From: Sporanaerobium hydrogeniformans
Lineage (GTDB): Bacteria; Bacillota; Clostridia; Lachnospirales; Cellulosilyticaceae
NCBI RefSeq assembly: GCF_002735925.1
Contig: NZ_PEDL01000021.1
Span: 1-46,513, forward strand
DNA: 46,513 bases
Reading direction: 5' to 3'
Shown here: positions 6,729 through 46,027 of the stretch, in pieces
Layout of the letters: every line of letters starts with the position of its first letter
Numbering within the stretch: position 1 is the stretch's first letter
Notes under the pieces: model-generated
The model's database searches: none
The model's input: only the letters and a program-made list of their open reading frames with translations
Told to the model about the DNA's origin: nothing
Program-made: the position numbers and the translations under genes

Positions 6729-7047
6729 TGTTTACACCCCTTTTTAAAATTTTTGTAACCTTTCTTTACTAGTAGGCACGTATATTGCTTCACAAATCAC
6801 TTATAACTTACAAATCACCCCCTATTATTATCTTTCCAAGTAAAAATACTGCAATTGATTACATAAATGTGATGTTTTGCAGTTTACTTAATCGACATCT
6901 CTAAATCCTCTCCTCATGAATAATGTTGATTTTAGTGTGATGTCATCTTACGATAAATTACACCTATAACGTTATCATTATTAGAATTTTATTAAAACAA
7001 CAAATCCTAGATGTTCTATCACTATTATGCTATAACTTTTTTAATTA
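6729..7047 (-). promoter_or_regulatory. Upstream region of the GH2 gene with inverted repeat
   Basis: This long untranslated region precedes the GTG start. It holds an inverted repeat, ACTGCAA (6848-6854) facing TTGCAGT (6877-6883), a plausible operator for the AraC-type response regulator encoded just upstream. One TTGCAG arm can serve as a -35 box, followed by a TAATAAT-like -10 about 16-18 bp away on the minus strand. The promoter call is weak and the operator assignment is inference. Confidence 0.35.
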
Positions 7048-7090
7048 ACAAAAAGAGACTAACGAAATATTATAATTTCTCTTAGCCTCT
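7048..7090 (-). terminator. Intrinsic terminator after solute-binding protein gene
   Basis: Read on the minus strand, AGAGGCTAA (plus positions 82-90 of the 7000s) pairs with TTAGTCTCT (7054-7062) through one G-U pair, with an inner GAAAT/ATTTC extension, followed by TTTTTG. It separates the binding-protein gene from the GH2 gene, so GH2 probably has its own promoter. Confidence 0.7.
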
Positions 7091-7106
7091 TAATCTTATT
7101 GCTATT

Positions 7107-8606: not shown

Positions 8607-8623
8607 CTACCCTATAAAGAATT

Positions 8624-10189
8624 TTATAAATTACGAAATTCCTTCGGTGTGTTGCCTGTTACCCTTTTAAATATTCTAGAGAAATACGCAATATTTCCAT
8701 AACCCACATCAATAGCTATATTGGTGATACTCTCATTTGTACTTTTTAATAATCTTTTTGCTGCTTGAATTCTAGTATTTATAATATAATCTGATATTGA
8801 AATGCCCATTTGCTGTTTAAAGATATGTGATAAATAATCAGGATGCAAAAAAACTTTATTTGCCATTTCAGTTCTATTAAGTTCTTTAGCCATATTCTCT
8901 TCTATATACCTTTTTATTTCATCTACTACAGATGGTGTTTTTTCTAATTCATAACTATAACTTGTAATATTTTGTAACAGTGTATCGATCCACATATACA
9001 TATCATCAAATGAGTTGGTTGCTTTATCAAATAGTTCAACCATTTGTTCATCTTTTAATATAGAATGTGCCTGAATCCCTTTTTTCCTTAACAAAATATA
9101 GAGTTCTTGCAAAAAGTCATTTTTAAATTGACTCAAACCAATAAAACCTATACAATCAATGCTTGATAAAAATGCTTTTACCTGTTCAATAGCAAAAGCA
9201 TAATTATCATTCAATATTTCATTCATCCATTTTTCCATATTAGGTTTTTCATAACTTGTGTTTTTAATATCCTGACTGAGTAAAGCTATAACTCTATTAG
9301 TTTTTAAAACATCGTTTTTTTCTGCTAATAAAAGTTCATGTACAGTTTTGGATAAATCATTAACCTCAACAATATCTTTTATATAACAAGTTGCTTTATA
9401 CTCCGGATAATAACTTACAAATACATTAATAAGCATCTGACATTTTTCTTGATAAACATTTATATTTTTTAAATTTGCTGTTTTTAAAACGAGTAAAGTA
9501 TTTTGATCTATGGAAAAAACATCTTTTGACTCAGTCACACCGAAGAAAATTTCAGCAACAATATTTTTTAGCACAAATTCAATGATGCTATTTCCTTTTG
9601 TCTCATTGCAAATTTTTAGTCGCTTCCATTTGACAATAATAGGACAATAATTTGTTTCATTAATGGAATAGCCTATTGTATTTGCCATTTTTTCAATAGC
9701 CTTCAATTCATTGCATTTGTGTTTAAAAATAATATCCTTCCAAAGATCCTGATACACTTTAACAGCATTTGAACTCCAATAGTCAGCAAATTTCTGATTA
9801 TCCTTGATTTTTTCTACCTCTTTTACTTGAACAACAGCTTTCATAATAACTGCTTCAAGCTCATTTTTAGGGGCTGGTTTTAGTAAATAATCTTTAACTT
9901 GCATTTTGATTGCCTTACTAGCATATTCAAAATTTGCATAGCTGGTCAAAAGTATAATAACAACACTATATGCTTCATTAATAATCCATTCAACCAAATC
10001 AAGCCCACTTCCTTTTGGCATTTCAATATCACAAATCATAATATCCACATGATTTGTTTTAAATATTTTTTGGGCTTGTTTCATATTATAGGCAGTATAT
10101 ATTTGACTAATATTCATACTTTTCCAATTAAGTATACTTTTTAAGCCTTCTACTGCAAGTACATCATCATCAACCATTAGGATATTCAT
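8624..10189 (-). CDS. YesN-type AraC-family response regulator
   Basis: Two-component response regulator with an N-terminal receiver domain (about 1-120) and a C-terminal AraC double helix-turn-helix (about 420-521). The acidic pocket D7-D9, the phosphoacceptor D54 in ICDIEMP, the Thr in LLTSYAN and the Lys in YLLKPAP are all present. The middle region is the variable linker typical of YesN proteins. I place the start at the ATG at 10189 because AAAGGGATGG sits about 8 nt before it; an in-frame GTG at 10210 lacks a good ribosome binding site. It pairs with the kinase gene encoded upstream (138 bp gap) and probably activates the binding-protein and GH2 genes. Confidence 0.9.
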   Translation of the reverse strand: MNILMVDDDVLAVEGLKSILNWKSMNISQIYTAYNMKQAQKIFKTNHVDIMICDIEMPKGSGLDLVEWIINEAYSVVIILLTSYANFEYASKAIKMQVKDYLLKPAPKNELEAVIMKAVVQVKEVEKIKDNQKFADYWSSNAVKVYQDLWKDIIFKHKCNELKAIEKMANTIGYSINETNYCPIIVKWKRLKICNETKGNSIIEFVLKNIVAEIFFGVTESKDVFSIDQNTLLVLKTANLKNINVYQEKCQMLINVFVSYYPEYKATCYIKDIVEVNDLSKTVHELLLAEKNDVLKTNRVIALLSQDIKNTSYEKPNMEKWMNEILNDNYAFAIEQVKAFLSSIDCIGFIGLSQFKNDFLQELYILLRKKGIQAHSILKDEQMVELFDKATNSFDDMYMWIDTLLQNITSYSYELEKTPSVVDEIKRYIEENMAKELNRTEMANKVFLHPDYLSHIFKQQMGISISDYIINTRIQAAKRLLKSTNESITNIAIDVGYGNIAYFSRIFKRVTGNTPKEFRNL

Positions 10190-10348
10190 TCTAATTACCA
10201 TCCCTTTCACTGTGCTTAAAGCACAAAATTTATTATTACCACCATTCTACTTTTAGCTTTAATAATGTTATCACTATCATATACTACATGCATTTGTTCT
10301 TTAATGTAGTCTATAGCATAAAGTTTTAGTCTTAATTTATTTTTCATA

Positions 10349-17485: not shown

Positions 17486-18544
17486 TTAGAGAGCCTTTAA
17501 AATACTTTTTTCTTCTTGCTTAACTCTAAGAGCTGCTCGAAAACAATCAACTAATTCTCCTATATCCGGTAGATAATGACTATATTTTACCTCACCCTCC
17601 ACATAAATGATTGGAATAGGAGTACTATCCTTCATTTTATGTTCAATGACTTTTACTTGCTTGCCTACAAGAGCTGCTGCTGTATAAACAGCTTCCATTG
17701 TATACTGACTCACTACACAACTCTCTGAATCAAAGGTGATACAGTCCACATTTACTGTTGTTAGTTCTCCTTTTAAGATATTCCTTCTATTTTCATATCC
17801 TTTATGAGTAGTCATTCCAAACTTGTAGGGTATTTCACCTTCTGATGTTTTATCCCCTTTAATAAGATTGACTCGTTTTCCTTGCTCTTTAATACACTCA
17901 AAAATAGGAGTAATATATGGCTCTACAAAGTTTTCGAAATGAGCTTTAGAAATATGAAAAGCCATAGGATCCACAAGAGCAATATTATCTACACCTAAAT
18001 TTATATACATTTGGGCAGTATGAAGGACAACTTTTTGACAAAATGTCATTAAGCATTCTACTTCTTCAGGCTCATCCAATAAATCATAAAAAACAGCTAC
18101 TCCTCGCAGGTGAAGCGCTAAGGTAAAGGGACCCGTCACAAGTCCATAAATCGCTTTTTCTTTACCAAAAGCTTTTACAATTTCCTTAGTAGCTTCTAAA
18201 ACTATAGGAAAACGCCCTTCCTTTTCTGTTGGGACTCTTAAATCTTCTAGTTTGGTTCCCTCTTCTAAAATATGATTAGATATCCGTGGAGGCTTATCTT
18301 TTGTATAAGTTAACTTACATCCCAGTGCTTCTGCCTCAAGCTGAAGGTCATATAAAATAGGCATTCTGTGAGAGCAGTAAAGACTACTTACCTTTATTGC
18401 TCCCTGCACGATATAGTCTGAGCATTTAAAATATTTTTCACTATCCACCTTAATAAGACTTGCTACGTGACAATTCATTAAAGAGAGCATTTCTTCTATT
18501 TCTTGATCCTGTTTTGGCTTTAGTACCTGCTGTCTTTCATACAT
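17486..18544 (-). CDS. UROD/MtaA-family protein lacking the HxC metal motif
   Basis: 352-residue member of the uroporphyrinogen-decarboxylase superfamily, closest in pattern to the MtaA/CmuA cobalamin:coenzyme methyltransferase branch (GLVTGPFTLALHLRG, VDPMAFHIS). In methyltransferases of this fold a zinc site is built from an HxCG motif after a beta strand. Here that segment reads NLIKGDKT, so the His is L227 and the Cys is K229. Both ligands are therefore absent, although a later cysteine pair (VDCITFDSESC) remains. AAAGGAGGGCT precedes the ATG. Neighbours are a MATE exporter upstream and a GH31 glycosidase downstream. It may be a divergent methyltransferase, a non-catalytic relative, or an enzyme with another chemistry. 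Confidence 0.75.
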   Translation of the reverse strand: MYERQQVLKPKQDQEIEEMLSLMNCHVASLIKVDSEKYFKCSDYIVQGAIKVSSLYCSHRMPILYDLQLEAEALGCKLTYTKDKPPRISNHILEEGTKLEDLRVPTEKEGRFPIVLEATKEIVKAFGKEKAIYGLVTGPFTLALHLRGVAVFYDLLDEPEEVECLMTFCQKVVLHTAQMYINLGVDNIALVDPMAFHISKAHFENFVEPYITPIFECIKEQGKRVNLIKGDKTSEGEIPYKFGMTTHKGYENRRNILKGELTTVNVDCITFDSESCVVSQYTMEAVYTAAALVGKQVKVIEHKMKDSTPIPIIYVEGEVKYSHYLPDIGELVDCFRAALRVKQEEKSILKAL

Positions 18545-27516: not shown

Positions 27517-28545
27517 TTATTTATGAAAGGTTCCGTATTTTTCAAAGCATTCCAATGCAAAAAGCATAGATTCTTCAGTTGTCCCAATTGATTTCAAATA
27601 ACCATATTCCACGCCAATTAATCCGCCTGAAGGAGTAGCCCATTTTTCAACCAGTTCTTTTACTTCCTCTTCTATTAACTTTTTATCACCTGTTGGCAAT
27701 GTTGCTTGGATATCTACTGCAGCTTCAAAACAAATCCTTCCTCGGGCAATTTTAGATACTTCATCGATATCAACTAATCTAGGTTGATGAATATTTAATA
27801 TATCCACACCCATCTCAATAAAGTCTTCTAAAATATCATTTATCTTTCCATCAGTGTGTAAACGAACATCCATTTTACATGCATGCGCTTTATCAAAAAC
27901 TCTTTTGTACTGTGGTTTAAAAATTTCCCTAAAGATTGTTGGGGAAATCATCAGACTTTGCTGAGTTCCCCAATCGTCTGTGGTATCATAACAATGAATT
28001 CTTCCTTCACCTAGACGATAAGCTTCTTCAATAATTCCAATCTGATAATCTGCAAGTTTAATAGCCAATGCTTCTATTTCTTCTGGATCTGTGATACAAT
28101 CCATTAATGTATTTTCAAATCCACGAAGAAAATGCATTCTTTCAAAAATACATTGAGGACTATTAAGCTGGACATAGAGCCCCTTTTCTTCTGCAGCATC
28201 TAATGCTTCTTTTAATCCATCAAAACGTCCTTCTGCCTTCGCATCTGGAAATTCATAGGTCTCTAAATCTTCCCATTCTTCAATAGGAATATTAACAACC
28301 TGTCCCATATCAGAGCCTGTAGCATCATCACTTTCCCACAAGCATCCCCATTCGTCATGTTCACCGGAAACAGGACGTATTTTTTTAGAAACAGTACATG
28401 GTACACTGTTATCTCTTTTATCTCTTGGAGGTAATACAAAGATTCTACATACGTCACCTTTTCCTCCAATTCTATCAAATCTAAGGCCTATACGCTCTGG
28501 ATTTTCAAAGCGAATATTCTTCTTAATTATCTCATATCCTGTCAT
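27517..28545 (-). CDS. UROD-superfamily protein in the ulaAB operon (HTDG variant)
   Basis: 342-residue uroporphyrinogen-decarboxylase-fold protein. At the metal-ligand position it has RLHTDGKIND, so the histidine (H230) is retained while the cysteine of the methyltransferase HxCG motif is Asp (D232). Such HTDG forms occur in uncharacterised UROD-like proteins of sugar loci. The ATG begins 2 bp after the ulaB stop codon with AGGAG inside the end of ulaB, so it is translated with the ascorbate PTS genes. It might be a methyltransferase, or a decarboxylase replacing the absent UlaD; both are inference. A true haem-pathway HemE is unlikely from context. Confidence 0.8.
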   Translation of the reverse strand: MTGYEIIKKNIRFENPERIGLRFDRIGGKGDVCRIFVLPPRDKRDNSVPCTVSKKIRPVSGEHDEWGCLWESDDATGSDMGQVVNIPIEEWEDLETYEFPDAKAEGRFDGLKEALDAAEEKGLYVQLNSPQCIFERMHFLRGFENTLMDCITDPEEIEALAIKLADYQIGIIEEAYRLGEGRIHCYDTTDDWGTQQSLMISPTIFREIFKPQYKRVFDKAHACKMDVRLHTDGKINDILEDFIEMGVDILNIHQPRLVDIDEVSKIARGRICFEAAVDIQATLPTGDKKLIEEEVKELVEKWATPSGGLIGVEYGYLKSIGTTEESMLFALECFEKYGTFHK

Positions 28546-32432: not shown

Positions 32433-33473
32433 TTAATCATTTAGTTTAGTTGCTTCATCAAATAAGGCTTTAATATTGGCAGGTGGTATATCTTTAAGTA
32501 TTGCTTCGTGACTTGGAGAAATAATAAGCCCTGTAGGGAAAATTTCACGTAATTCTTTTACCTTTGCTTGTACCTGAGTAGTTGTACCATTTACTAATAA
32601 ATCTTGTGTATCTACCCCTCCACAAAAAGATACCTTTTCTCCAAATTTATTTTTTAAGCTTGTAGGGTCCATACCTGCTGCAAGGGCTTGAATAGGATGC
32701 ACGATATCTACACCTGCTTCAATTAAATCTGGAATAATATCTACAATGGAACCACAAGAGTGATAAATTACTTTAAGACCATAACTATGTGCTTGCTCCA
32801 CTAATTTTTTGCATCCTGGGATAATAAAGCGTCTTACCATTTCAGGTGAAAGCATAAGTCCCCTTTGGCTACCCATATCATTTCCGATAAGCACAGCATG
32901 AATTTTACCTTTAGTTGCTTCATAGAAAATTTCATTAGCTTTTAGGTAAAAATCCATAACTTTTTCATTAACTGCTTCATAAATCTCTGGGTTAGCAATC
33001 ATGTTCATAAGAGCTGTTTCCATTCCGAAAGCAGCACATGTATCTTGAAAATGGGCTGACCACAGCATACCTAATACGACCTTATCCTTTGGTGCTGCTT
33101 CTACACGTCTTTTACATTCTTCTACATCAATATATTTTGCTGGGTCTGGCCATTCAAAGAACTCTAAGTCCTCTAATTCTTCGGCCTCGTTAAAACAACC
33201 ATTTGTTGTAAGAGTTCTTTCTTCCGCATCTACATCTCCATCACCATACCAATCAAAGGCTGCATAGATTGCTTCTGCTGTAGGTGATTTGTAGGGTACT
33301 TCTACTGCATAAAAATCATCTCCAACTGCCAGTTTAAGTTCATGTAAATTTTTAACTCCATAATATTCAAAGAGAGCTGGTTGTGCATACATATCCGGCA
33401 TACCTAACCACGCAGCAGGACGGTCAACAGGCTTTCTTTCTACAGTTGCATAAAAACGTTCAATACTATTCAT
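32433..33473 (-). CDS. UROD-family methyltransferase with intact HSCG motif
   Basis: 346-residue uroporphyrinogen-decarboxylase-superfamily protein. The metal-binding motif is complete (H238 and C240 in VIYHSCGS), and a further cysteine lies in VSFCGGVDTQ, as in MtaA/CmuA-type corrinoid methyltransferases. A GGAGGG ribosome binding site precedes the ATG. It lies downstream of an RbsABC-type importer and upstream of a rhamnose-mutarotase-family gene, in a cluster that also encodes a corrinoid protein and its activator. I propose that it moves a methyl group between an imported methoxylated sugar and the corrinoid protein. HemE function is unlikely because no haem genes are near. Confidence 0.82.
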   Translation of the reverse strand: MNSIERFYATVERKPVDRPAAWLGMPDMYAQPALFEYYGVKNLHELKLAVGDDFYAVEVPYKSPTAEAIYAAFDWYGDGDVDAEERTLTTNGCFNEAEELEDLEFFEWPDPAKYIDVEECKRRVEAAPKDKVVLGMLWSAHFQDTCAAFGMETALMNMIANPEIYEAVNEKVMDFYLKANEIFYEATKGKIHAVLIGNDMGSQRGLMLSPEMVRRFIIPGCKKLVEQAHSYGLKVIYHSCGSIVDIIPDLIEAGVDIVHPIQALAAGMDPTSLKNKFGEKVSFCGGVDTQDLLVNGTTTQVQAKVKELREIFPTGLIISPSHEAILKDIPPANIKALFDEATKLND

Positions 33474-33496: not shown

Positions 33497-34450
33497 TTAA
33501 GCAGTAGCTTTACTACGTTTTTGAATACTATTAATAATAACGGCTCCAAAGATAACAAGTCCTTTTACAACGCTTTGCATATAAGGATTGACGTTAAGAA
33601 GTACCATACCATTACTTAAAATCCCTACAAAAAGTAAACCGACGATCGTTCCACCTAAATTACCTTCACCACCAGCCATATTGGTTCCACCAATAATTGC
33701 ACCAGCAATGGTATCCATTTCCCAAGCATTTGCACAAGTGGGGTCACCTGAACGAACTTTTGATGCAAGTAAGATACCTGCTACACCACAAAGCATAGAA
33801 GATATAACAAATACAGTTGTTTTTACTTTTTCTACATTAATACCTGATAATCTAGCAGACTCTTCATTCCCTCCAATAGCATAGATAGAACGGCCAAAAA
33901 CAGTATATTTCATAATATAAATAAAGATTGCATAAAAAATAATCATATAAATAACTAAGTAAGGAATACCAACAATAGATCCTGATGAAATTTTACCAAA
34001 TGCATCTGGAAGTCCCGCAATTGGATAACCTCCGGTGAGGGTTTGAGCAAGTCCTCTAAAAGCTTGCATAAGTGCTAAAGTTACTAAGAAAGAGTGAAGT
34101 TTAAGTTTAGCAGTTACCCCACCTGAAATAAGTCCAAGTACTCCACTTATAAGTACTGTTAAAATTAAAGCAATGGGCATGGGCAAAGACTTAAGCATCA
34201 TAGCTGCTACAACAGATGAAAAGGCTACGATAGAACCTACACTTAAATCAATATTTCCTGTAATAATAATCATAGTCATACCAATGGCTACAATAGATTG
34301 AATAGAAATCTGTTTTACAATAGTCATTAAATTACTTGGTGTTAAAAATTTATCATTTAATAAGGCAATAGCAATACACATAATTACTAATACAAAATAC
34401 ATAATATACTTCATTAAAAATGCTTTTAAAGTTTGTTTATTTACACTCAT
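33497..34450 (-). CDS. RbsC-type sugar ABC transporter permease
   Basis: 317-residue inner-membrane permease of the ribose/xylose/galactoside family (BPD_transp_2), with about eight to ten hydrophobic segments and the family blocks GMTMIIITGNIDLSVGS and AGAIIGGTNMAGGEG. It dimerises to form the import channel. GGGGGAG precedes the ATG. It is encoded between the ATPase and UROD genes. Substrate not determined; context suggests a monosaccharide or methylated sugar. Confidence 0.93.
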   Translation of the reverse strand: MSVNKQTLKAFLMKYIMYFVLVIMCIAIALLNDKFLTPSNLMTIVKQISIQSIVAIGMTMIIITGNIDLSVGSIVAFSSVVAAMMLKSLPMPIALILTVLISGVLGLISGGVTAKLKLHSFLVTLALMQAFRGLAQTLTGGYPIAGLPDAFGKISSGSIVGIPYLVIYMIIFYAIFIYIMKYTVFGRSIYAIGGNEESARLSGINVEKVKTTVFVISSMLCGVAGILLASKVRSGDPTCANAWEMDTIAGAIIGGTNMAGGEGNLGGTIVGLLFVGILSNGMVLLNVNPYMQSVVKGLVIFGAVIINSIQKRSKATA

Positions 34451-34467
34451 TTTTTCTCCCCCTTAGG

Positions 34468-35970
34468 TTAAATAGCTTTTTGACTTGTTGCATAATCAAG
34501 TAATATTTCTTGAGTCAAATCTTTATTTTCAAGCTCAGCTGTTACCTTTCCTGCTGCAAATACAACAATACGGTTAGCCACTTGCAGAACCTCTGGTAAT
34601 TCTGAAGAAATCATAATAATTCCTATACCTTGCTCAGCCAGTTCATTAATGAGCTTATAAATTTGATTTTTAGACCCTATGTCAATACCTCTTGTAGGCT
34701 CATCCATAATTAAAATTTTAGGTGTTGTAGCTAACCATTTTGCAATAACCACTTTTTGTTGGTTACCACCACTTAGATCTTTAGCTGCTTGATTACCATC
34801 TTTACACTTAATACTAAGAGATTTAATATAGCCATCCATTAGTTCTTCTTCTTTATGTAAATCTAAGCCAAACTTTTTAACTAATTTATTCAAAATGGTC
34901 ATTCCCACATTGTTATGTAAACTCATATTGAGAATAAGACCTTCTTCTTTTCTATCCTCAGTAATAAAACCAATTCCTGCCCGTTTAGCATCTAAGGGGG
35001 AATCTATTTTTACTTGTTTTCCTTCAACTAATATTTCTCCCTTGTCCTTTGGATCTGCTCCAAAGAGTGCTCTTACAAATTCTGTTCTTCCTGCACCTGC
35101 TAAACCTGCAATTCCTAAGATTTCTCCTTTATGGAGTTTCATATTTATATTTTCAAACTTCTTACCTGAAGAAAAGTTTTTTACTTCTAGGAGAGCCTCT
35201 GGTTGAGTATAGTTTACTCTTTTAGTTAATGTCATATTTTTTCCTACCATATTTTCAATAATGACATTTTTAGGTGCTTCTTCAATGGGTAATGTCTTAA
35301 TATACTTGCCATCTCTATAAACAGAGATTCTATCACAAATAATAGGTAATTCTTCTAAACGGTGAGAGACATAAATAACACTAATACCTTTTTCCTTAAG
35401 CCCTCTTACAATATTAAACATCTTCTCAATATCATTATCTGATAGAGAAGCTGTTGGTTCGTCCATGATAAGTACTTTAATCTCATTGGATAAAGCCTTG
35501 GCAATTTCTACAAGTTGCTTTTGTGCTACACTTAGGTCACCTACAATAGTCTCTGGCTTGATATCTGATTCTAAGAGATCTAAAATCTCCTGTGCCTTAC
35601 TATTAATATCCTTCCAATCAATTTTAGGAACTCCTGCCATTTTCTTACAAGGAAATTTACCCATATAAATATTTTCTGCTACAGATACTGTATTAATTAA
35701 ACTAAATTCTTGATATACAGCACTAATCCCTAGTTTTCTTGCCTCAAATGTTGATTTAATGTGAATTTCTTTACCATCTAAGTAGATTTTCCCCTCATCA
35801 TTTCCATAGGCACCAGTAATAATTTTAATTAATGTACTCTTTCCCGCACCATTGGCACCTACAAGGGCATGAACTTCACCTTTTTTTACTTCTAGGCTGG
35901 CATTATCTAAAGCTGTAATACCACAAAACTTTTTCGTAATTCCTTCTGCTTTTAATACAGTGTCACTCAC
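34468..35970 (-). CDS. RbsA-type sugar ABC transporter ATPase
   Basis: 500-residue protein with two ABC domains. The first has Walker A GANGAGKST and signature LSVAQKQ; the second has a degenerate Walker A (GLAGAGRTE) and signature LSGGNQQK, the usual asymmetry of the family. Starts at GTG with GGAAGGTGG upstream. It powers the importer formed with the RbsC- and RbsB-type proteins. Confidence 0.94.
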   Translation of the reverse strand: MSDTVLKAEGITKKFCGITALDNASLEVKKGEVHALVGANGAGKSTLIKIITGAYGNDEGKIYLDGKEIHIKSTFEARKLGISAVYQEFSLINTVSVAENIYMGKFPCKKMAGVPKIDWKDINSKAQEILDLLESDIKPETIVGDLSVAQKQLVEIAKALSNEIKVLIMDEPTASLSDNDIEKMFNIVRGLKEKGISVIYVSHRLEELPIICDRISVYRDGKYIKTLPIEEAPKNVIIENMVGKNMTLTKRVNYTQPEALLEVKNFSSGKKFENINMKLHKGEILGIAGLAGAGRTEFVRALFGADPKDKGEILVEGKQVKIDSPLDAKRAGIGFITEDRKEEGLILNMSLHNNVGMTILNKLVKKFGLDLHKEEELMDGYIKSLSIKCKDGNQAAKDLSGGNQQKVVIAKWLATTPKILIMDEPTRGIDIGSKNQIYKLINELAEQGIGIIMISSELPEVLQVANRIVVFAAGKVTAELENKDLTQEILLDYATSQKAI

Positions 35971-36002
35971 TTAAACCACCTTCCTTTCTCCATTTGTTTC
36001 AT

Positions 36003-36044
36003 AAAGAAAGAGACTTTAGAAACTAGTCATCCGCCTCTTTCTTT
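36003..36044 (-). terminator. Intercistronic hairpin between binding protein and ATPase genes
   Basis: A 10-bp stem AAAGAAAGAG/CTCTTTCTTT (36003-36012 with 36035-36044) lies between the binding-protein stop codon and the ATPase start, with a weak T-rich tail on the minus strand. It probably gives partial termination or 3'-end protection, so that binding protein is made in excess. Confidence 0.6.
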
Positions 36045-36060
36045 TGTTTTTGAATTTAAC

Positions 36061-37074
36061 TTATTTTACTAAATCTTTGTGATCTTCTATATATTGCTCT
36101 ATTTCTGCTGCATCATCTTTTATGTATGTTTTAAGTGGAACTAATACTTTCTTTTCAATACTTTCACCTTTAGCAGCCTTCACTGCATTTTCTACAGCTT
36201 TATAACCGATATCATATGGCATTTGAGTTGTAATTGCTTGAAGTTTTACTGCATCACTTTGCATATCTTTTGCAAGGTCAACACTCATATCTGTTCCCAT
36301 TACTATAATTTTGTTGTTATTAGCATTTTGAAGAGCTGCTACACAACCTAATAATGAAGTTTGATTCCATGCCCAAATCATATCTATATCAGGATTAGCT
36401 GTTAAAATTTGTTCGGTTACGTCTAAACCTTGTTCTTGTAATTCAGCATCTTGTTCTGCTACAATCTCAATACCTGGTGCATCTTTAATAGCATCTTTAA
36501 AACCATTACATCTTTCTACACCTACTTCATAGCTACTATTTCCTAAAATAGCTAATTTACAACCATTTGGGAAGTTTTCTTTTACGTACTCTACTACATA
36601 TTTACCAGTACTTCCACCTAAATCATAGTTTGATACACCTACGAAACCAGCTGTTTCTGTATTAACTGTTGTATTCCAGTTAACAACAGGAATGTTAGCT
36701 CCCTTAGCTGCCTCAACTGCTGCTACAGAAGCATCTGTTGAAAGTGGAGAGATACAAAGTGCATCTACTTGCTGTGCAACATATGTAGCAACATTATCTG
36801 ATTCTTTAGATACCTCATTTTCAGAACTTACAATACTAAACTTAACTCCTAAATCTTTAGCTGCATCTTGTTGTCCTTTAATAACCTCTGCAAACCATTC
36901 GCCTGAAGTATTCATGATAACAGAACCAATGGTAATATCTGTTTTTTGACTATCTTCTTGTGCTGGTGCACCTTCAGCTGCCCCTTGGCTTGCTGTTTCT
37001 TTACTTTGACAGCCTACTCCTAAGCTCGCTACTAACATTGCACTTAACACAAGGCCCCACATTTTTCTTTTCAT
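36061..37074 (-). CDS. RbsB-type sugar-binding lipoprotein
   Basis: 337-residue lipoprotein of the Peripla_BP_4 family, the substrate-capture part of the importer. The signal peptide ends in a lipobox, LGVGC, with lipidated C22. Conserved family segments include IGSVIMNTSGEWF and VNWNTTVNTETAGFVGVSN. GAGGAGG lies upstream of the ATG. A strong hairpin (37128-37166) separates it from the preceding sensory genes, so importer genes probably have a separate promoter, controlled by the response regulator upstream. Confidence 0.93.
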   Translation of the reverse strand: MKRKMWGLVLSAMLVASLGVGCQSKETASQGAAEGAPAQEDSQKTDITIGSVIMNTSGEWFAEVIKGQQDAAKDLGVKFSIVSSENEVSKESDNVATYVAQQVDALCISPLSTDASVAAVEAAKGANIPVVNWNTTVNTETAGFVGVSNYDLGGSTGKYVVEYVKENFPNGCKLAILGNSSYEVGVERCNGFKDAIKDAPGIEIVAEQDAELQEQGLDVTEQILTANPDIDMIWAWNQTSLLGCVAALQNANNNKIIVMGTDMSVDLAKDMQSDAVKLQAITTQMPYDIGYKAVENAVKAAKGESIEKKVLVPLKTYIKDDAAEIEQYIEDHKDLVK

Positions 37075-38196: not shown

Positions 38197-40047
38197 CTAT
38201 CCCAGACTTTGTTCTATAATAGGAAGTGTAAGTATTGCGGTTGTACCTACACCTAATTCACTTGTATATGTAATACCATATTCCTCACCAAAGTATAACT
38301 TAATACGCTCATTTACATTTTTAACTCCAATGCCTGACCCACTGCTATTATCAAATCTAGAAGCTTTCACCAAAATGTCTTTACACATGTTTTCGTTCAT
38401 ACCATTACCGTCATCTGTAATCTTAACCTTAAGATAATCTGCCTTTTTATAAGCTATAATACTCACATGTCCCTTCCCTCTTTTTTTCTTAATACCATGA
38501 TAAATACAGTTTTCTACAATAGGTTGTAAAATCAATTTAATGGTTTTGCAGTATCTCACTTCATCACTTAATGTAATGGTATATTCAAATTTGTCCACAT
38601 AGCGCATGCTTTGAATAATTAAATAATTTCTTACATGCTCTAACTCATCTTGTATACCAATAAACTCACTTCCTCGATTAAGCGAAATACGAAAAAGCTT
38701 AGCTAATGCCTCTGTCATAGGAACAATGTTTTTATTTTGTGCCTCTGCCATCCATATAATTGAATCCAGTGTGTTATACAAAAAGTGAGGATTGATTTGG
38801 GCTTGTAATGCTTGCAATTCATATTTACGTTTATCTTCTTGCTCATTTACTACTTCTGCCATCAAATTTTTAATACGCTTTAACATGCCATTAAAACTCT
38901 TTGCTAACATGCCTGTTTCATCATTTCTAAAAATTTCTACTGTTACATCTAAATTTCCTTCATCTGCTAAATCCATATGTTCCTTTAGATGGATAATAGG
39001 CTTTACAATTTCTATAAGGAGGCTATTAAGTACTAGTATAATAATAATAAGTAGTAGCATTACCAATAATACAATAAAGAAAGTAGTCTTATACATGGAA
39101 TTTGTCAAGGCTGGAATAGATGTCATGTGCACAAGCTTCCACTCTGTTCCTAGTATAGGCCGATAAACCGCTTGATACTTGACACCATTTCTCCAAATGG
39201 TAAAATCATCTCTTTTAGTCTTTTCTAAAGCACTGTTGATGGCTGTAATGAGTTTAGGTTCTCTTAGGTCATTCATACCTCTATACAACTCTCCTTGTGT
39301 ATAAACAACTTCACCCTTTTCATTTAAAATCCATAAGTCTCCTCCATTGCTATTATAAACAGCATTACATATTTCTGTAATACGATTAAGATTAATATCT
39401 ATCAAGATAACACCTAAAAAAGTCCCATCCTCATAGCTGCTAATCACTTTGCTTAGTGAAATATTGGGTTCTGTATTTCCTACTAAGAAATCATGCTCAG
39501 AAGGCCCTAAAATAACGAGTTGTTGAGGGTTAGCTACAGCTTTTTGATACCATTCATACTGGCTATAGTCCTTAATCAAGTTTAAAGAAGAGTAAATACT
39601 CTTCTTTAATAATAATCTTTCTTTACCAAAAATCATAACTGTTGAAACATCTGAACGACTATTTAAGGGATAACTAAATAGTTTTAAACTCATTTCGAAA
39701 TTTTTCATATACTCTTTTGAAAGTTGATAACGGTAATCACCAGCTTGTTCATTCTGTTTTTCAGCAATAAGATAATTTTGTAAATAGTAATTATAATTAG
39801 CCTCATTAGCGATGGCTCCTAGCTCATCAAAATAATTATTTAATTGGCTATTGGTATGATTAAGTAGTTTTTGAGTATAGATAATATGCTCTTTTCTAAT
39901 ATTTTTACCAAACACCCCAATAAAAATCCCACTCGCTACTAAAAGACAAAGAACAATAAGTCCTGAAACCATTAACAAAATCCTATTTTTGATACCTATA
40001 TGCTGCTGTTTTTCCCTCCATTTTTCTAGCAACACTTTAGTCTGCAT
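38197..40047 (-). CDS. YesM/LytS-type sensor histidine kinase
   Basis: 616-residue membrane kinase. A helix near 25-47, an extracellular sensor region (about 50-310), a second helix near 322-345, a HAMP domain, the His_kinase motif with phosphoacceptor H421 in QINPHFLYNTL, and a GHKL ATPase with ITDDGNGM and GSGIGVKNVNERI are in order. GAGGTGA lies 6 bp before the ATG. It is encoded between its response regulator and the membrane-anchored binding protein, and presumably detects the sugar bound by that protein. Confidence 0.92.
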   Translation of the reverse strand: MQTKVLLEKWREKQQHIGIKNRILLMVSGLIVLCLLVASGIFIGVFGKNIRKEHIIYTQKLLNHTNSQLNNYFDELGAIANEANYNYYLQNYLIAEKQNEQAGDYRYQLSKEYMKNFEMSLKLFSYPLNSRSDVSTVMIFGKERLLLKKSIYSSLNLIKDYSQYEWYQKAVANPQQLVILGPSEHDFLVGNTEPNISLSKVISSYEDGTFLGVILIDINLNRITEICNAVYNSNGGDLWILNEKGEVVYTQGELYRGMNDLREPKLITAINSALEKTKRDDFTIWRNGVKYQAVYRPILGTEWKLVHMTSIPALTNSMYKTTFFIVLLVMLLLIIIILVLNSLLIEIVKPIIHLKEHMDLADEGNLDVTVEIFRNDETGMLAKSFNGMLKRIKNLMAEVVNEQEDKRKYELQALQAQINPHFLYNTLDSIIWMAEAQNKNIVPMTEALAKLFRISLNRGSEFIGIQDELEHVRNYLIIQSMRYVDKFEYTITLSDEVRYCKTIKLILQPIVENCIYHGIKKKRGKGHVSIIAYKKADYLKVKITDDGNGMNENMCKDILVKASRFDNSSGSGIGVKNVNERIKLYFGEEYGITYTSELGVGTTAILTLPIIEQSLG

Positions 40048-40074
40048 GGAATCACCTCTCTTTACTTCTTTTCC

Positions 40075-41667
40075 TTAGCGTATCAGTCTAAAATCAGATG
40101 GTGACATCCCTGAATACTTTTTGAAAGAAATACTAAAATAATGTGGGTTAGAAAAACCAATTTCATATGCGATTTCATAAGTACGTTTATCTGTTGTTTT
40201 TAGAAGCTGCATAGCTTTTTTCATACGTACATCTGTTAAATAATCCGTAAAATTAATGCTCGTTTCTTTTTTGAACAAAGCACTTAAATAACCTGTACTT
40301 ACGCCTACATGTCCTGCTACCGTTGCTAAACAAAGCTGCGTATCCGTATAATTTTCTTCGATAAAATCCTTAACCGTTTCAATGAGTATTTGGCCACTAT
40401 GAGATTGCAAACGATGTAGCTCCTTGGCAATCTTCAGCGAAAAAACCAATATCCCTTCTTGTAGTTTTTCTAATGAGCTTACATGCTCTAAGCTATTATA
40501 AAGCCTAATTCCCTCATTCCATACTTCAAGTGGTAATTCCTTTATACTGGATAGCTCCTTAAGTAAACAAGTGATTACTTCAATAAAAATCATCTTAATA
40601 TTAGAACTTGATAGATTCTTTGAATGAATAAGTATATCAAAAATACCCTGTAGGGATTCTTCAATATCTTTAGTTTGTAAAAATTTAATACTATAAATAA
40701 GTGTTTTTATTTCATCAAATGGATAAAAGAAAGATTTTTCAATGTAATTTAAATCACTAATATCATAAACACGATTACTGCCTAAAGAGTATTTACAGTC
40801 AAGTGCTATATCTGCCTCTTTATAGGACTGGTAGATATCCTTTATATCCGAAACAATTGTACCAATAGCACATGTTATATCTACCTTAAGAATACTATAA
40901 ACAGCTTTTTGAATCACCTGAAGTGTCCTATATATAATATCCCGGGCATCATCTTGAATATCATCTACATTAAAAACTACAATAATATGATGGTTATAAT
41001 CTCCAAAAATGCAGTGCTGATTGCCCACACTATCTTGGGTAACATTTTTCATAGTAAATTCAAAGAGCTCCCTGTCCCCATAGGAAACTTGAGTTAAATC
41101 TGCTTCTATAATCCCTACTACATAGTTATCTCCCTTTAAAGGTAGCTCAAGGTTCCGTATACCTTCTTCAATGTTTTTGCCTTTTCCATAGGGTGTACAC
41201 ACTAAAGAATATAAAAATTTCTCTCTTAAAGCAGGCATACTTTGAAGGACTTGTTCACGCATTTTAGCTATGTATTTTTTCTGAGTTTCTTCTATACGAA
41301 GTTTCTTACAGATTTCCTTCATTTTAGTATACAGGGTTGATGCTCCTACTGGCTTTAGAATATAGTTTTTAACACCTAAGTCCACTGACTCCTTAGCATA
41401 TTCAAAATCCTCATGCCCTGTTAGTACAACAATATGGGTCTTAGGATAATCTCTTGTTACAATACGTGAAAGCTCTAATCCATCCATAAAAGGCATCACA
41501 ATATCTGTCAGTATTAAATCTACCTTGCAATTTTTACAAATTTCAAGTGCTTCGATACCATCTTCTGCTTGATAGATACGTGTAAAACCTAATGACCCCC
41601 AATCAATAATAGTGGCAATGGACTGTCTAACAAGTGCCTCATCATCTACAATAAGTAGTGTATACAT
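40075..41667 (-). CDS. YesN-type AraC-family response regulator
   Basis: 530-residue response regulator. The receiver domain (1-120) has D8/D9, phosphoacceptor D55 in LILTDIVMP, T in VLTGHED and K in YILKPVG. The AraC DNA-binding domain occupies about the last 100 residues (VAGHVGVSTGYLSALFKKE, then IAYEIGFSNPHYFSISF). AGGGGGAAAGGT precedes the ATG, 10 bp after the activator gene. It probably drives transcription of the RbsBAC-UROD-RhaM genes that follow. Confidence 0.92.
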   Translation of the reverse strand: MYTLLIVDDEALVRQSIATIIDWGSLGFTRIYQAEDGIEALEICKNCKVDLILTDIVMPFMDGLELSRIVTRDYPKTHIVVLTGHEDFEYAKESVDLGVKNYILKPVGASTLYTKMKEICKKLRIEETQKKYIAKMREQVLQSMPALREKFLYSLVCTPYGKGKNIEEGIRNLELPLKGDNYVVGIIEADLTQVSYGDRELFEFTMKNVTQDSVGNQHCIFGDYNHHIIVVFNVDDIQDDARDIIYRTLQVIQKAVYSILKVDITCAIGTIVSDIKDIYQSYKEADIALDCKYSLGSNRVYDISDLNYIEKSFFYPFDEIKTLIYSIKFLQTKDIEESLQGIFDILIHSKNLSSSNIKMIFIEVITCLLKELSSIKELPLEVWNEGIRLYNSLEHVSSLEKLQEGILVFSLKIAKELHRLQSHSGQILIETVKDFIEENYTDTQLCLATVAGHVGVSTGYLSALFKKETSINFTDYLTDVRMKKAMQLLKTTDKRTYEIAYEIGFSNPHYFSISFKKYSGMSPSDFRLIR

Positions 41668-41677
41668 ACCTTTCCCC

Positions 41678-43882
41678 CTAAAAAATCATATGTTCCATAT
41701 AAAACTCATTAAAGTTCTTATTTGTAGAAAGATTTACTTCCTCCGCTACTTTACCAATATGCTCTACATTCTCTTCAGCCTCTTTATGAGTGCCATAATA
41801 AATCGCACCACCTAAGGAACTATTACCAACAATCTTTATTTTATTTTTAAAAGCTTCTGGGAATAAACCTATCGTAATGGCTTTATCTTTGTCTAAATTA
41901 AATCCAAATCCCCCTGCTAAGTAGACTGTTTCAACTTGGTCATAGGTCACACCATAGCTTTCTAAAAGGATTTCTATCCCTGTACGAATAGCTGATTTAG
42001 CCAGTTGAATTTCTCTTATATCCTTTTGTGTTAAAACAATCGACTCTCCATCTAAGGTAGTAGCAATAGGGTATCCTTCCTCAAAGTAGTCCTCTTCTAA
42101 TAAACCGGTTTCATCAATAAGCTCCTGTTTAACTAACTCTGCTACTAGTTCAATAACACCTGTTCCACATAAACCAGCAGGTGGTTTCTGACCGATTGTT
42201 TCATACTGCATAGTACCTTCTTTAAAATGAACACGGGAAATAGCCCCTTCTATACTTCCTGTGCCCCATAAAATATTACCACCTTCAAAAGCAGGTCCTG
42301 CCGCTGTCGCTGCACAAATAATTTTATCCTTGTTCCCAAGTGCCATTTCACCATTTGTACCAAGATCTACAAATAATGCTACCTCTTGACGTGTTTCAAA
42401 ATGACATGCTAAAAGTCCCGCTACAATATCACCTCCTACATAGGTAGAAATACCTGGTAGCAGGATTACTTCACACTCTAGATCTTCTCTCCCTAAAATT
42501 TCCTTAAAAGATCCTCTAATAGTACCAATATTAACAGGTGTAAAAGGAAAAACACCTAATGTTTCACAGGAATATCCCATGAGTAAATGTCCCATGGTAG
42601 TATTGCATCCTATCACAACTCGCTTAATGCGCTCTTTTGAAATATTTCCTTTTTTAATAACTACTTCTATGCCTTGCCATAGATCCTGCCTGATAAGCTC
42701 TTGAAGGACTTTTCCTTTTCCCTCATTTGATGCTTGGATACGTGAAATAACATCTGCACCATACGCTCTTTGCCTATTTACTGCACTTGTAATGTCCGTC
42801 ATTTTACCAGTAGCTTCCTCTACTATTCCTACTGCTAGGGTAGTGGTTCCTATATCTATAGCAATTATATAGTCTTTTTCTATTCTATTATCTACTTCAC
42901 TTTGTTCTAGAGCTACCTTATTCTCTTCTTCATAGTGTGTTAACACTTCAAAATGGGCATCTGCACGTAATACTTCTACTGTTAAAGGCTGTTGAACTTG
43001 TGCCATACATGCTAACCGATAGCCTTGATTTATTTCCGATTCCATTAACTTTTTAGAATCTGCTTCTGTTAAAGGAAGCTCACCAGAAACTACCCTTACT
43101 TTACATTTCCCACACACTCCTTTACCTGAGCAAATGGCATTAGGAAATATCTTATTTCTACGTAATACTTCTAATAAATTTTCACCTTTTTTACAGCTTA
43201 TTTTATGAGACCCCTCTTCATTCAGCACTTCTATCTGAACAGTTGGAATCCTCCTGTTCTTGCAATTTATGCTTGGACATTTACTACAATCATGCTGTAT
43301 TTCAAATAATTTTTCATCCTCGCTTAAAACCAATACATAGCCAATGGTCTTTACAGGATTAAACATATAACCATCAGATAAGTCAATGTTTAATCTTTCT
43401 TTAAGTTGCAAGCTTTCCCATATTTTCTTTTGAAATGTCATAGGGATATCATGAGGTGCTTCTAAACGTTTTTCTATGCCTCTCTTATGTTTTGCACACA
43501 CTTGCCTGATAGATTCTTCCATCCCTTTTTCCATAGAAAAAAGATAAGCATCTGCTATGGCATCTACTAACATCCCTTTTAGATAATCCCCTTCTTTAAA
43601 TAGAGCATTGCTGTACTGTGTAACCTTATTTCCTATAGTAAGTGCTACATAAATACATTCTTTTTTCCCTTGTAATGCTTCAATATCTCTTTCCTCACAT
43701 GTTTTCTCTACTCCAAAAACCCCATAAGGCTCAAGGAGTGATAAAACGTTTTGTTTTACTTCCTCGTATTCTTCTACAACTTCTTCATAAATATCACTTT
43801 CTTTATAACAATCAATCAGTTTAAAAACTTCTTCTTGTTTAATAACATTCTCAAACTGCTTTACAATAGTTATATCACTCAT
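41678..43882 (-). CDS. Corrinoid-activating Fe-S ATPase fused to a MetH-activation-like domain
   Basis: 734 residues. From about 216 to 305 a [2Fe-2S] ferredoxin domain carries the cysteines of ICSGKGVCGKCK and RLACMAQ. From about 340 to 700 follows a RACE/RamA-type ASKHA ATPase domain (DUF4445), with DIGTTTLAVG, DLGTNGE, AAGPAFEGG and LAGGFGF. These proteins use ATP and low-potential electrons to reduce inactive Co(II) corrinoid proteins. Unusually, residues 1-195 resemble the cobalamin-dependent methionine synthase activation domain (LNIDLSDGYMFNPVKTIGY), ending in a cysteine cluster CSKCPSINCKNRR. AGGAGGT precedes the ATG. It is encoded 83 bp after the corrinoid-protein gene, its probable client. 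Confidence 0.9.
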   Translation of the reverse strand: MSDITIVKQFENVIKQEEVFKLIDCYKESDIYEEVVEEYEEVKQNVLSLLEPYGVFGVEKTCEERDIEALQGKKECIYVALTIGNKVTQYSNALFKEGDYLKGMLVDAIADAYLFSMEKGMEESIRQVCAKHKRGIEKRLEAPHDIPMTFQKKIWESLQLKERLNIDLSDGYMFNPVKTIGYVLVLSEDEKLFEIQHDCSKCPSINCKNRRIPTVQIEVLNEEGSHKISCKKGENLLEVLRRNKIFPNAICSGKGVCGKCKVRVVSGELPLTEADSKKLMESEINQGYRLACMAQVQQPLTVEVLRADAHFEVLTHYEEENKVALEQSEVDNRIEKDYIIAIDIGTTTLAVGIVEEATGKMTDITSAVNRQRAYGADVISRIQASNEGKGKVLQELIRQDLWQGIEVVIKKGNISKERIKRVVIGCNTTMGHLLMGYSCETLGVFPFTPVNIGTIRGSFKEILGREDLECEVILLPGISTYVGGDIVAGLLACHFETRQEVALFVDLGTNGEMALGNKDKIICAATAAGPAFEGGNILWGTGSIEGAISRVHFKEGTMQYETIGQKPPAGLCGTGVIELVAELVKQELIDETGLLEEDYFEEGYPIATTLDGESIVLTQKDIREIQLAKSAIRTGIEILLESYGVTYDQVETVYLAGGFGFNLDKDKAITIGLFPEAFKNKIKIVGNSSLGGAIYYGTHKEAEENVEHIGKVAEEVNLSTNKNFNEFYMEHMIF

Positions 43883-43964: not shown

Positions 43965-44609
43965 TTATCCTACTTTTTCTATTACAGCTTTTTTAGCCAC
44001 TTCTGCACAAGTCGTTGCATCAGGTGTATAATAATCTGCACCAATTTGCTCAGCAAAACTTTCACTTACTGGTGCACCACCTACCATGACAATATATTTA
44101 TCCCTTAAACCTTTTTCATTTAATGCCTCAATAACTGTTTTCATACTTGGCATTGTTGTTGTAAGTAGTGCTGACATACAAATAATGTCTGCTTCCACTT
44201 CTTCTGCTTTGCTAATAAAGTCTTCTGCTTCTACATCAACACCGATATCATGGATCTCAAGACCAGCACCTTTTAACATCATAACAACTAAGTTTTTACC
44301 GATATCATGAAGGTCACCTTTTACTGTACCAACGATCGCTTTTCCAATAGGTTTATTACCAACTTCTATAAGCTTAGGCTCTAAGATAGCTACACCTGCA
44401 TTCATTGCTCGTGCTGCTACTAAAACCTCTGGTACGAAAACATCATTATTTTTAAACTTTTCACCGATAATCATCATACCAGATAATAGACCCTCGTTTA
44501 GAATCTTTTTAGGATCTATACCTTCATCTAAAGCCTGTTGTACTAAAACCTTTACATTCTTTGCTCTTCCTTTTTGTAGTAATTCAGATATTTCTCCTAA
44601 AATCTCCAT
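43965..44609 (-). CDS. Cobalamin-binding corrinoid methyltransfer protein (MtaC/MttC-like)
   Basis: 214-residue methyl-carrier protein. The N-terminal helical cap (about 1-85, MetH-cap type) is followed by a Rossmann-like cobalamin-binding domain with GDLHDIGKN, where H101 is the lower axial cobalt ligand, and further family blocks SALLTTTMPSM and VGGAPVSESFAEQIGAD. It carries a methyl group on cobalt between methyltransferases. AGGAGG lies 9 bp before the ATG. It is the first gene of the cluster, followed by its activator, and is transcribed divergently from the PocR-type regulator. Sequence alone does not tell which methyl donor it serves. Confidence 0.94.
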   Translation of the reverse strand: MEILGEISELLQKGRAKNVKVLVQQALDEGIDPKKILNEGLLSGMMIIGEKFKNNDVFVPEVLVAARAMNAGVAILEPKLIEVGNKPIGKAIVGTVKGDLHDIGKNLVVMMLKGAGLEIHDIGVDVEAEDFISKAEEVEADIICMSALLTTTMPSMKTVIEALNEKGLRDKYIVMVGGAPVSESFAEQIGADYYTPDATTCAEVAKKAVIEKVG

Positions 44610-44776: not shown

Positions 44777-46027
44777 ATGAAACCCTATCTTTATACAATT
44801 GTAGAAAAGAAAAAACTAAGAGAAATGCTAGAAGCTTTTGAAGCCTGTTTAAACTTACCTATTCAGGTTATTGATGAGCATGGTGATATTTTAGAGGCCT
44901 GTGGTAATACTACTCCTTTTTGTAGTATTGTAAAAGGCTTTTTACCTAAAAATGACTCCTGTGAAAAAATACATATCGCAGCTAGTAAAAAGGCTATTGA
45001 ACTAGGTGAAACTTATATTTTTTCCTGCCATGCCAATCTTAATCATATTGTTTTTCCTCTACTTAATAAAGGAGTATTTTTTGCCTCTATTTTAGTTGGA
45101 CCTTTTCTTATGGACAAACCCGACTCACTTCTTATAGCCGATGTTGCACATAGATATGCAATAGGAACCGATGACCTTCTAGAACTATATGATACGTCTT
45201 ATTCCATTCGTGTCATTGCTCCAGCTTTAGTTACACATATCAGTAAACTACTTTATTTCTTATTTTATAATCTTATTTCAGACAGTCAAAAGCAATTTAT
45301 GGATAATCAAGATAAATTCCATCAGCAATCTAAAATCAATGAATCCATTCAAATGTACAAAACCTTTGATATTACTAATAAAACTTCTTATCCTTACGAA
45401 AAAGAAAAAGAACTTATTAGTAAAGTCAAGGTAGGGAATATTCAAGAAGCCAAAAGTATTCTCAATGATTTATTAGGTTATGTTCTGTTCTCTGAAGGTA
45501 ATAGTCTTGATATTTTAAAGACAAGAGCTGTGGAGCTCTGCTCTCTTCTTTCACGTGCTGCTATAGAAGGTGGGGGGGCTACTGATACCATCTTAAAAAT
45601 TAGTAATCAATTTTTAAAATCCCTTCAAGAAATTACAGATTTTGAAATCTTATGTTCTAAACTCCAAGAAGCAGTAGAGGTTTTTGTTGAAAGTAGTTTT
45701 AACTATACTCCTACTAAAAGTAATGATCGTGTTAAAAAAGCCGTTGCCTATATCTCTAAAAATTTTTCTCATGCTATTTCTTTAGAAGAAGTAGCAGAAC
45801 ATGTAAATCTTAATCCTACTTATTTTTCAAGTATTTTTAAGCAGTATAGTGGTTCTTCCTTTAGGGAATACCTCAATATGGTACGTATAGAGGAAAGTAA
45901 ACGACTCCTTTCCAATACGGACTATACAATTATTGATATTGCTATAGCAGTAGGTTTTGAAGATCAAAGTTATTTTTCTAAAGTCTTCAAAAAATATACT
46001 GGTCTTACTCCCAAACAATATCGTTAA
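44777..46027 (+). CDS. AraC-family regulator with PocR sensor domain
   Basis: 416 residues, the only substantial plus-strand gene. Residues about 10-170 match the PocR ligand-binding domain, with the typical cysteine layout (FCSIVK, DSCEKIH, YIFSCHANL) and the HIVFPLL and GVFFASILVGPF strands. PocR domains are predicted to sense small hydrocarbon-type molecules and occur in regulators of corrinoid-dependent pathways such as propanediol use. The C-terminal AraC double helix-turn-helix covers about 315-416 (LEEVAEHVNLNPTYFSSIF, then IDIAIAVGFEDQSYFSK). AAAGGAG lies 9 bp before the ATG. Divergent from the corrinoid-protein gene, it is the natural candidate activator of that cluster. Confidence 0.92.
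   Translation: MKPYLYTIVEKKKLREMLEAFEACLNLPIQVIDEHGDILEACGNTTPFCSIVKGFLPKNDSCEKIHIAASKKAIELGETYIFSCHANLNHIVFPLLNKGVFFASILVGPFLMDKPDSLLIADVAHRYAIGTDDLLELYDTSYSIRVIAPALVTHISKLLYFLFYNLISDSQKQFMDNQDKFHQQSKINESIQMYKTFDITNKTSYPYEKEKELISKVKVGNIQEAKSILNDLLGYVLFSEGNSLDILKTRAVELCSLLSRAAIEGGGATDTILKISNQFLKSLQEITDFEILCSKLQEAVEVFVESSFNYTPTKSNDRVKKAVAYISKNFSHAISLEEVAEHVNLNPTYFSSIFKQYSGSSFREYLNMVRIEESKRLLSNTDYTIIDIAIAVGFEDQSYFSKVFKKYTGLTPKQYR

Follow-up and report, generated by a model that had tools for sequence, protein, structure and literature searches.

A corrinoid activator of Sporanaerobium hydrogeniformans with an N-terminal relative of the MetH reactivation domain that lacks the S-adenosylmethionine loop

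INTRODUCTION

Methyltransferases that depend on B12 are rescued in two ways, with S-adenosylmethionine (SAM) and an electron, as in methionine synthase (MetH), or with ATP and an electron, as by the RACE activators. In MetH the reactivation domain caps the corrinoid, while the ATP-driven conversion of Co(II) to Co(I) is the known activity of RACo. A gene of Sporanaerobium hydrogeniformans raises the question of what a domain of the first system does in a protein of the second. It lies at 41678..43882 on the reverse strand of the window analysed here (46,513 nt of contig NZ_PEDL01000021.1, assembly GCF_002735925.1), starts with ATG and encodes a 734-aa fused corrinoid activator, P0001, in which a MetH-reactivation-like N-terminal domain (N-domain) precedes a 2Fe-2S ferredoxin domain and an ASKHA ATPase. 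The original prediction likened the N-domain to the SAM-binding activation domain of MetH and proposed that the fusion might join ATP-driven reduction to methylation or add an Fe-S site for electron entry. Here we report that the N-domain shares its ancestry with the reactivation domain of MetH and has lost the SAM loop, and that it probably helps to grip the B12 protein or to pass electrons, not to methylate.

RESULTS

The N-domain of P0001 (residues 1-212; 43247..43882, on the reverse strand like all parts of the protein given below) has the fold of the MetH reactivation domain. When residues 1-200 alone were compared with PF02965, the match covered residues 79-196 with an E-value of 1.7e-4 and 21.6 bits, under the gathering cut-off of 25, and 6 of 18 members of the N-domain class matched this family at E<=0.01, so that the domain is easily overlooked and is probably unannotated in many anaerobe genomes. 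A profile of 18 N-domains (A4) was aligned by hhalign with that of 15 stand-alone MetH-type proteins (A5) over 202 columns (99.7%, E 2.6e-26), and its top match in the PDB was 1J6R (TM0269), with an E-value of 4.6e-15. The AlphaFold2 model of residues 1-214 (predicted local distance difference test, pLDDT, 91.2; predicted template modelling score, pTM, 0.86) gave 19 Foldseek matches at E<=1e-3, all of them MetH activation domains or MetH chains containing one, the first again being 1J6R (E 1.7e-10, TM 0.71). Taken together, the profile-profile, PDB-profile and Foldseek matches rule out a chance resemblance, and the homology is secure. The likeness that had been proposed for about 200 extra N-terminal residues, to be given up if a profile search showed residues 1-195 to be unrelated to the MetH activation domain, was thus borne out. 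Both sequence features on which the proposal leaned were also found in place: YMFNPVKTIGY (residues 172-182, 43337..43369), the P-x-K-S/T block common to MetH activation domains, and the terminal Cys cluster, H197-x-C199-x2-C202-x4-C207-x2-R210 (43253..43294), a candidate metal or Fe-S cluster site; HDCSKCPSINCKNR starts at residue 197.

The remainder of P0001 has the parts of a RACE activator. Pfam placed a Fer2 [2Fe-2S] domain at residues 223-296 (42995..43216; 47.1 bits against a cut-off of 21, E 2.2e-12), with all four cysteines present (C251, C257, C260 and C292), followed by Raco_middle, the first half of the ASKHA domain, at residues 338-496 (42395..42871; 143.7 bits against 26.8, E 5.3e-42). 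The second half, RACo_C_ter, was located by Pfam and by structure comparison at residues 500-733 (41684..42385; 246 bits against 27, E 4.4e-73). On the full-length model, VIA-align superposed RACo (3zyy) on residues 313-734 (Z 47.7, 34% identity over 414 residues), 1J6R on residues 2-187 (Z 17.7) and subunit F of Na+-NQR on residues 212-308 (Z 15.1). P0001 therefore shows what marks the RACE/DUF4445 superfamily, namely an ASKHA domain, a four-Cys 2Fe-2S domain and a neighbouring gene for a corrinoid protein. It was the sole RACo_C_ter protein found in its own genome and, used as a query against viral_contigs, gave no match.

The SAM-binding role was examined in an alignment of 60 domains, 15 of them SAM-loop (MetH-type stand-alone) proteins and 45 others forming the class of the window. 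These classes were first set by eye and then recovered by a tree built without the motif columns; three copies of the window (L002, L003 and L034), a 118-aa fragment (L033) and a near-copy of L009 that contains X (L010) were left out of both alignment and tree, and a MetH neighbour was present in both of the two SAM-loop proteins checked (L001, at L096, and L058, at L188). The loop R-x-S-P-G-Y-G was present in 15/15 of the MetH type, the equivalent of E. coli MetH reading RPAPGY in the alignment, and was lost in 45/45 of the window's class, where its Tyr occurred in none. The loss extends to all 35 ATPase-linked members, window included (15 fused with ferredoxin, 10 fused without it and 10 in adjacent genes). 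P0001 reads RLEAPHDIP at this position (residues 139-147, 43442..43468), with the Gly-Tyr lost, and a related E-A-P motif occurs in most of the window's clade. A conserved Asp, found in 15/15 of the SAM-loop class, was kept in 3/45, and the two classes were split with support of 100/99 on the tree made without the SAM-loop columns, although the trees contain flagged long branches. The pattern C-x2-C-x4/5-C (Cys3) was found in every member of both classes (45/45 and 15/15), whereas a His two residues ahead of it was found in 38/45 of the window's class and in 0/15 of the other.

Judged by the SAM-loop and Asp columns, SAM binding by the N-domain would be rejected, and the same loop loss and class split count against a joining of ATP-driven reduction and methylation; on both points the sequences speak against the original prediction. 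A coupling of this kind, with SAM still bound in an altered way, would draw on the clear homology to a SAM-binding domain and on the P-x-K-S/T block, which is mostly kept in the window's class (P in 42, K in 39 and S or T in 43 of the 45), and is nevertheless very unlikely given the fate of the loop Tyr and the Asp. We take the proline-rich loop of human MTR to be the same motif as the SAM loop. A change in that loop, which is flanked by SAM-contacting residues, raised the KM for SAM about 40-fold according to the available text of PMC12272874, which also argues against altered binding. In the genome of P0001, a SAM-loop protein of 223 aa overlaps a metH gene (L096); in the metH product S-methyl_trans, Pterin_bind and the two B12 domains were found, but no PF02965. 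Both versions of the domain therefore coexist there.

The fusion is not confined to P0001, nor is it shared by all activators; it is a recurrent, minority form among the clostridial genomes sampled. The named loci are the best 80 of 588 confirmed, and among them N-domain, Fer2 and ASKHA were joined in 10, N-domain and ASKHA without Fer2 in 3, and in 4 the N-domain was a separate gene beside the activase or about 2 kb from it; no activase open reading frame (ORF) was obtained from L170, and some of the 80 end near the match. The closest in this set, with 45-49% identity, are from Lachnospiraceae: a roe-deer metagenome-assembled genome (MAG), Anaerocolumna sp. MB42-C2, Lachnoclostridium sp. An138 with a related MAG, a Blautia MAG and a C. 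symbiosum MAG. RACo_C_ter occurred in 164 of the 391 genomes of a class sample, with the fusion in at least nine, and in 182 of the 392 genomes of an order sample, with the fusion in at least 22 of the 182; 21 of these genomes, the window's own included, were counted from matches on the same contig with adjoining coordinates, the ORFs not being read singly, while G025 was added by its ORF, and discrepant frame lengths were reported for G532 and G476. A fusion universal among activators, which would have refuted the prediction, was therefore not what we found, and recurrence in the named loci and the order sample rules out an assembly or frameshift artefact. The fused protein is a new form of RACE activator; a search of the open-licence literature, subscription papers not being searchable, found no description of a fusion between a MetH-like domain and an activase. 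No fewer than five gains or losses are required on the domain tree to account for the label 'fused with ferredoxin', which means that linkage to the activase has arisen repeatedly or has been retained.

The N-domain also occurs in other arrangements. Its gene neighbours that of the activase at L006, L008, L009, L044-L046, L050, L122, L124 and L160, from which the two parts probably act together, as the fusion had been taken to indicate. A gene for a corrinoid protein or for MetH was found near 11 of the 15 fetched loci with ferredoxin-containing fusions, the window not counted (a corrinoid protein at L072, L080, L098, L100-L103 and L110; MetH at L081, L092 and L113), and by Pfam the MetH of L081 and of L113 is free of PF02965. 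All surroundings were scanned with a few query proteins only. The gene at L080:10629-11978 (reverse strand) encodes a 450-aa URO-D protein whose C-terminal domain is thioredoxin-like (PF13192), and elsewhere homologues are again met near the N-domain.

In a further group of fusions the ferredoxin is missing. Cys3 is present in 11/11 of those checked, and in none is the N-domain followed by a ferredoxin Cys pattern; Pfam found no Fer2 in the two that were scanned. Seven genomes of family code f34 with such a fusion (L073-L078 and L097; L229-L235), which are 92-99% complete, were searched whole. Each contained one RACo_C_ter protein and one B12-binding_2 protein, the latter MetH-like, ending just past the B12 domain and so lacking an activation domain, and profile A5 detected a SAM-loop domain in 0/7, although as a control it found L085, absent from the A5 alignment, at 4e-71. 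In these seven genomes, then, no MetH reactivator other than the fusion was found. The N-domain is also fused to CobA/BtuR, an enzyme that likewise needs cob(I), at L084:5432-6577 (reverse strand; G223), where PF02572 matched with an E-value of 2e-54; the same fusion was recognized by homology in L183, L184, L185 and L186, giving five genomes of one genus code (g13) and proteins of 372-396 aa.

A gene for a CobW-family GTPase lies beside the N-domain or one gene from it at nine loci (L065, L069, L080, L086, L089-L091, L122 and L160), one of which, L091, has the order corrinoid protein, URO-D, CobW, N-domain, activase. Together with the CobA fusion, these neighbours would suit an adaptor for cofactor loading, in which the N-domain helps to deliver or process the cobamide with a CobW-type GTPase. 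We consider this improbable, since no CobW was found among the Pfam-scanned genes of the window (453-10210 lying outside the scan) or among the ORFs of L098-L103.

In the window itself, the gene upstream of the activator and on the same strand (43965..44609) encodes a 214-aa MtbC/MtgC-like corrinoid protein with B12-binding and B12-binding_2 domains by Pfam, the likely substrate of P0001. It is followed by a divergent gene for a PocR-domain AraC-type regulator (44777..46027, forward strand), a type also found near the fused orthologues L100, L102 and L103. On the other side lie a two-component system identified by Pfam (38197-41667), an ABC importer of the sugar type (33497-37074), with a binding protein recognized by Pfam and an ATPase and a permease recognized in the ORF list, and three proteins of the URO-D family. 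Two are methyltransferase candidates, UroD1 (32433..33473, reverse strand) and UroD2 (27517..28545, reverse strand), and the third is at 17486-18544. The region also holds a rhamnose-mutarotase-like protein, phosphotransferase system genes and a class II aldolase. In the alignment UroD1 keeps H-x-C and has Glu at the position of the third Cys of MtaA, while UroD2 reads H-x-D by eye. Nearly all Mlps of the type 1 mlp gene clusters have His-Cys-Cys in the available text of PMC10418091, from which both proteins differ, and membership of the window in this cluster type was dropped. The same text relates carboxylate ligands to O-methyl substrates, a rule from which it would be a reasonable guess that the cluster demethylates an O-methylated sugar or polyol.

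Elsewhere in this genome a second corrinoid protein is encoded at L182 (G000:C15, 6508-9203), next to a 459-aa gene that presumably encodes an MtaB-like methyltransferase; a PocR-type regulator and a weak match to CobW are found there too. The one activase of the genome may serve both corrinoid proteins.

DISCUSSION

How would a MetH domain without its SAM loop serve an ATP-driven activator? In our best reading the N-domain is a SAM-less corrinoid-docking module and possibly one for Fe-S electron entry, and we hold with about even confidence that P0001 is an ATP-driven corrinoid activator in which this domain docks the corrinoid and feeds the electron through an Fe-S cluster. P0001 would reductively activate the corrinoid protein encoded at 43965-44609 at the expense of ATP, its N-domain being a MetH reactivation domain that has probably given up SAM. 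The domain would grip the Co(II) form of the corrinoid protein much as its counterpart in MetH forms a cap over the corrinoid of that enzyme, and the H-x-C-x2-C-x4-C site may hold an Fe-S cluster that feeds the electron, either by way of the 2Fe-2S domain or, in the relatives without ferredoxin, directly. The ASKHA ATPase would then power the reduction of Co(II) to Co(I), and ATP would take over the part of methylation, the thermodynamic sink of MetH. The extra Fe-S site that had been suggested for the N-domain is possible.

Several observations weigh against this account, and those on the electron route come first. A complete 2Fe-2S domain is already present in P0001. The Cys3 motif is common to the SAM-loop class, so the cluster may be structural; 7/45 of the window's class lack the preceding His, and the class member in the genome of L112 has no Cys cluster. 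The full-length model has a pLDDT of 84.4 and a pTM of 0.65, which leaves the placement of the domains unsure. The first two of these points, together with the capping function of the MetH domain and the existence of sister activases without an N-domain, would agree with an adaptor for docking only, which positions or selects the corrinoid protein and in which Cys3-His binds structural, non-redox Zn or Fe. We regard such an adaptor as rather unlikely, as the 11 fusions with no ferredoxin pattern, which include the only MetH reactivator found in seven genomes, speak against it: there the electron must come from the N-domain or from a separate protein. These ferredoxin-less reactivators and the CobA fusion are the strongest hints that electrons enter through the N-domain; they are not proof, because such fusions could draw electrons from a separate carrier.

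Other contrary observations concern the relatives of the activase. When a tree was built from the ATPase domain alone, with 53 hand-picked rows, of which 25 domain-free ones were chosen from more (L124, L141, L169 and L095 left out), P0001 paired with L104, which has no N-domain, with support of 91/88, and another sister activase without it, L105, shares 59% identity. The label 'no N-domain' required 16 changes on this tree, and starred branches make 10 of these unavoidable. Because such close sisters lack it, the N-domain must be optional, not required. Moreover, 9/10 genomes with sister activases, nine of the ten being MAGs, gave no member of the window's domain class; four had the SAM-loop type only, five had no match, and one, that of L112, had a relative of 196 aa without SAM loop that ends ahead of the Cys cluster (L223, 1483-2070, reverse strand). 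Its absence from close sisters could mean that the N-domain is a near-neutral passenger, with a fusion kept by history and no activation role. We find this highly improbable in view of the Cys3 motif in 45/45, the E-A-P motif that most members of the window's clade have where the SAM loop would be and the repeated gains or losses of the ferredoxin fusion.

The genomic surroundings also count in part against our reading. Within the limits of the scan, neither a corrinoid protein nor a MetH gene was found near 4/15 of the ferredoxin-containing fusions (L079, L099, L106 and L145), and such a gene was found near only 1/11 of the ferredoxin-less ones (L082, a MetH). Stand-alone members had been described as often lying near corrinoid methyltransferase genes; this held for 4/11 of those scanned (L064, L065, L069 and L086), and no such gene was found near the other seven (L066, L067, L068, L070, L071, L087 and L088).

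P0001 joins the MetH domain, minus its SAM loop, to the engine of a RACE activator, and thereby indicates what part may be left for this domain to play once SAM is gone. More tentatively, and somewhat against the balance of our confidence, the SAM-less branch of the MetH fold may be a general Co(I)-forming, corrin-docking module of anaerobes with a His-Cys3 Fe-S cluster, which plugs into ASKHA with or without ferredoxin, into CobA, or stands free, and which in some lineages would be the sole MetH reactivator, with ATP substituting for SAM. If true, this role as a general module would carry the implication beyond the window. The ferredoxin-less forms and the CobA fusion allow a direct test of whether cobalt can receive an electron by way of this fold.

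Compared with the MetH activation domain (PF02965; TM0269, 1J6R), the N-domain is alike in fold and homologous along its whole length, but lacks the SAM loop and the conserved Asp, is fused to an ATPase and falls under the Pfam cut-off. It usually adds a His before Cys3, while Cys3 itself is also found in stand-alone clostridial SAM-loop proteins. With RACo/AcsV, the activator of the corrinoid iron-sulfur protein (3zyy, 4c1n), P0001 shares the ASKHA domain and an N-terminal 2Fe-2S domain, and differs in the extra N-domain ahead of the ferredoxin, in the score against NCBIfam NF040756 for RACo/AcsV proper (368.8 bits against a cut-off of 800), and in the RACo linker, which is not among its Pfam matches at E<=1. 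RACo binds cobalt through Ser398 in the available part of PMC4934906, and this cobalt-capping residue aligns, read by eye, with Ala527 of P0001. For the activating enzyme (AE) of Acetobacterium dehalogenans, a member of the same family, the accessible text of PMC6739815 states that AE and ATP together lift the potential of the Co(II)/Co(I) couple by 250-300 mV, to -250 mV from an initial -530 mV.

The likeness to the RamA, RamQ and OdmC activators lies in the surrounding genes, which encode a corrinoid protein and candidate methyltransferases, although P0001 scores 121 bits against a cut-off of 500 for TIGR04270 and so differs from RamA. RamQ and OdmC consist of a ferredoxin and a DUF4445-type ATPase, a layout also present in P0001, and to our knowledge the MetH-like domain is not part of any of these three activators. 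Neither 'methionine synthase' nor 'activation domain' is mentioned in the main text of the two papers on RamQ (PMC12155760, PMC8604678). MecGH of the dichloromethane cassette was considered as a precedent and dropped, no MetH-like domain being shown in the available description. A functional parallel is offered by the DUF4445 proteins that, in the available text of PMC5764234, reactivate MetH in Phaeobacter and Desulfovibrio, where an activator of the ATPase type serves a MetH free of PF02965. As in that case, the fused forms of L113 and L081 stand in a run with a PF02965-free MetH; in contrast to the activator described for Phaeobacter, which comprises a ferredoxin and DUF4445, the MetH-like domain is here added to the ferredoxin or found in its place.

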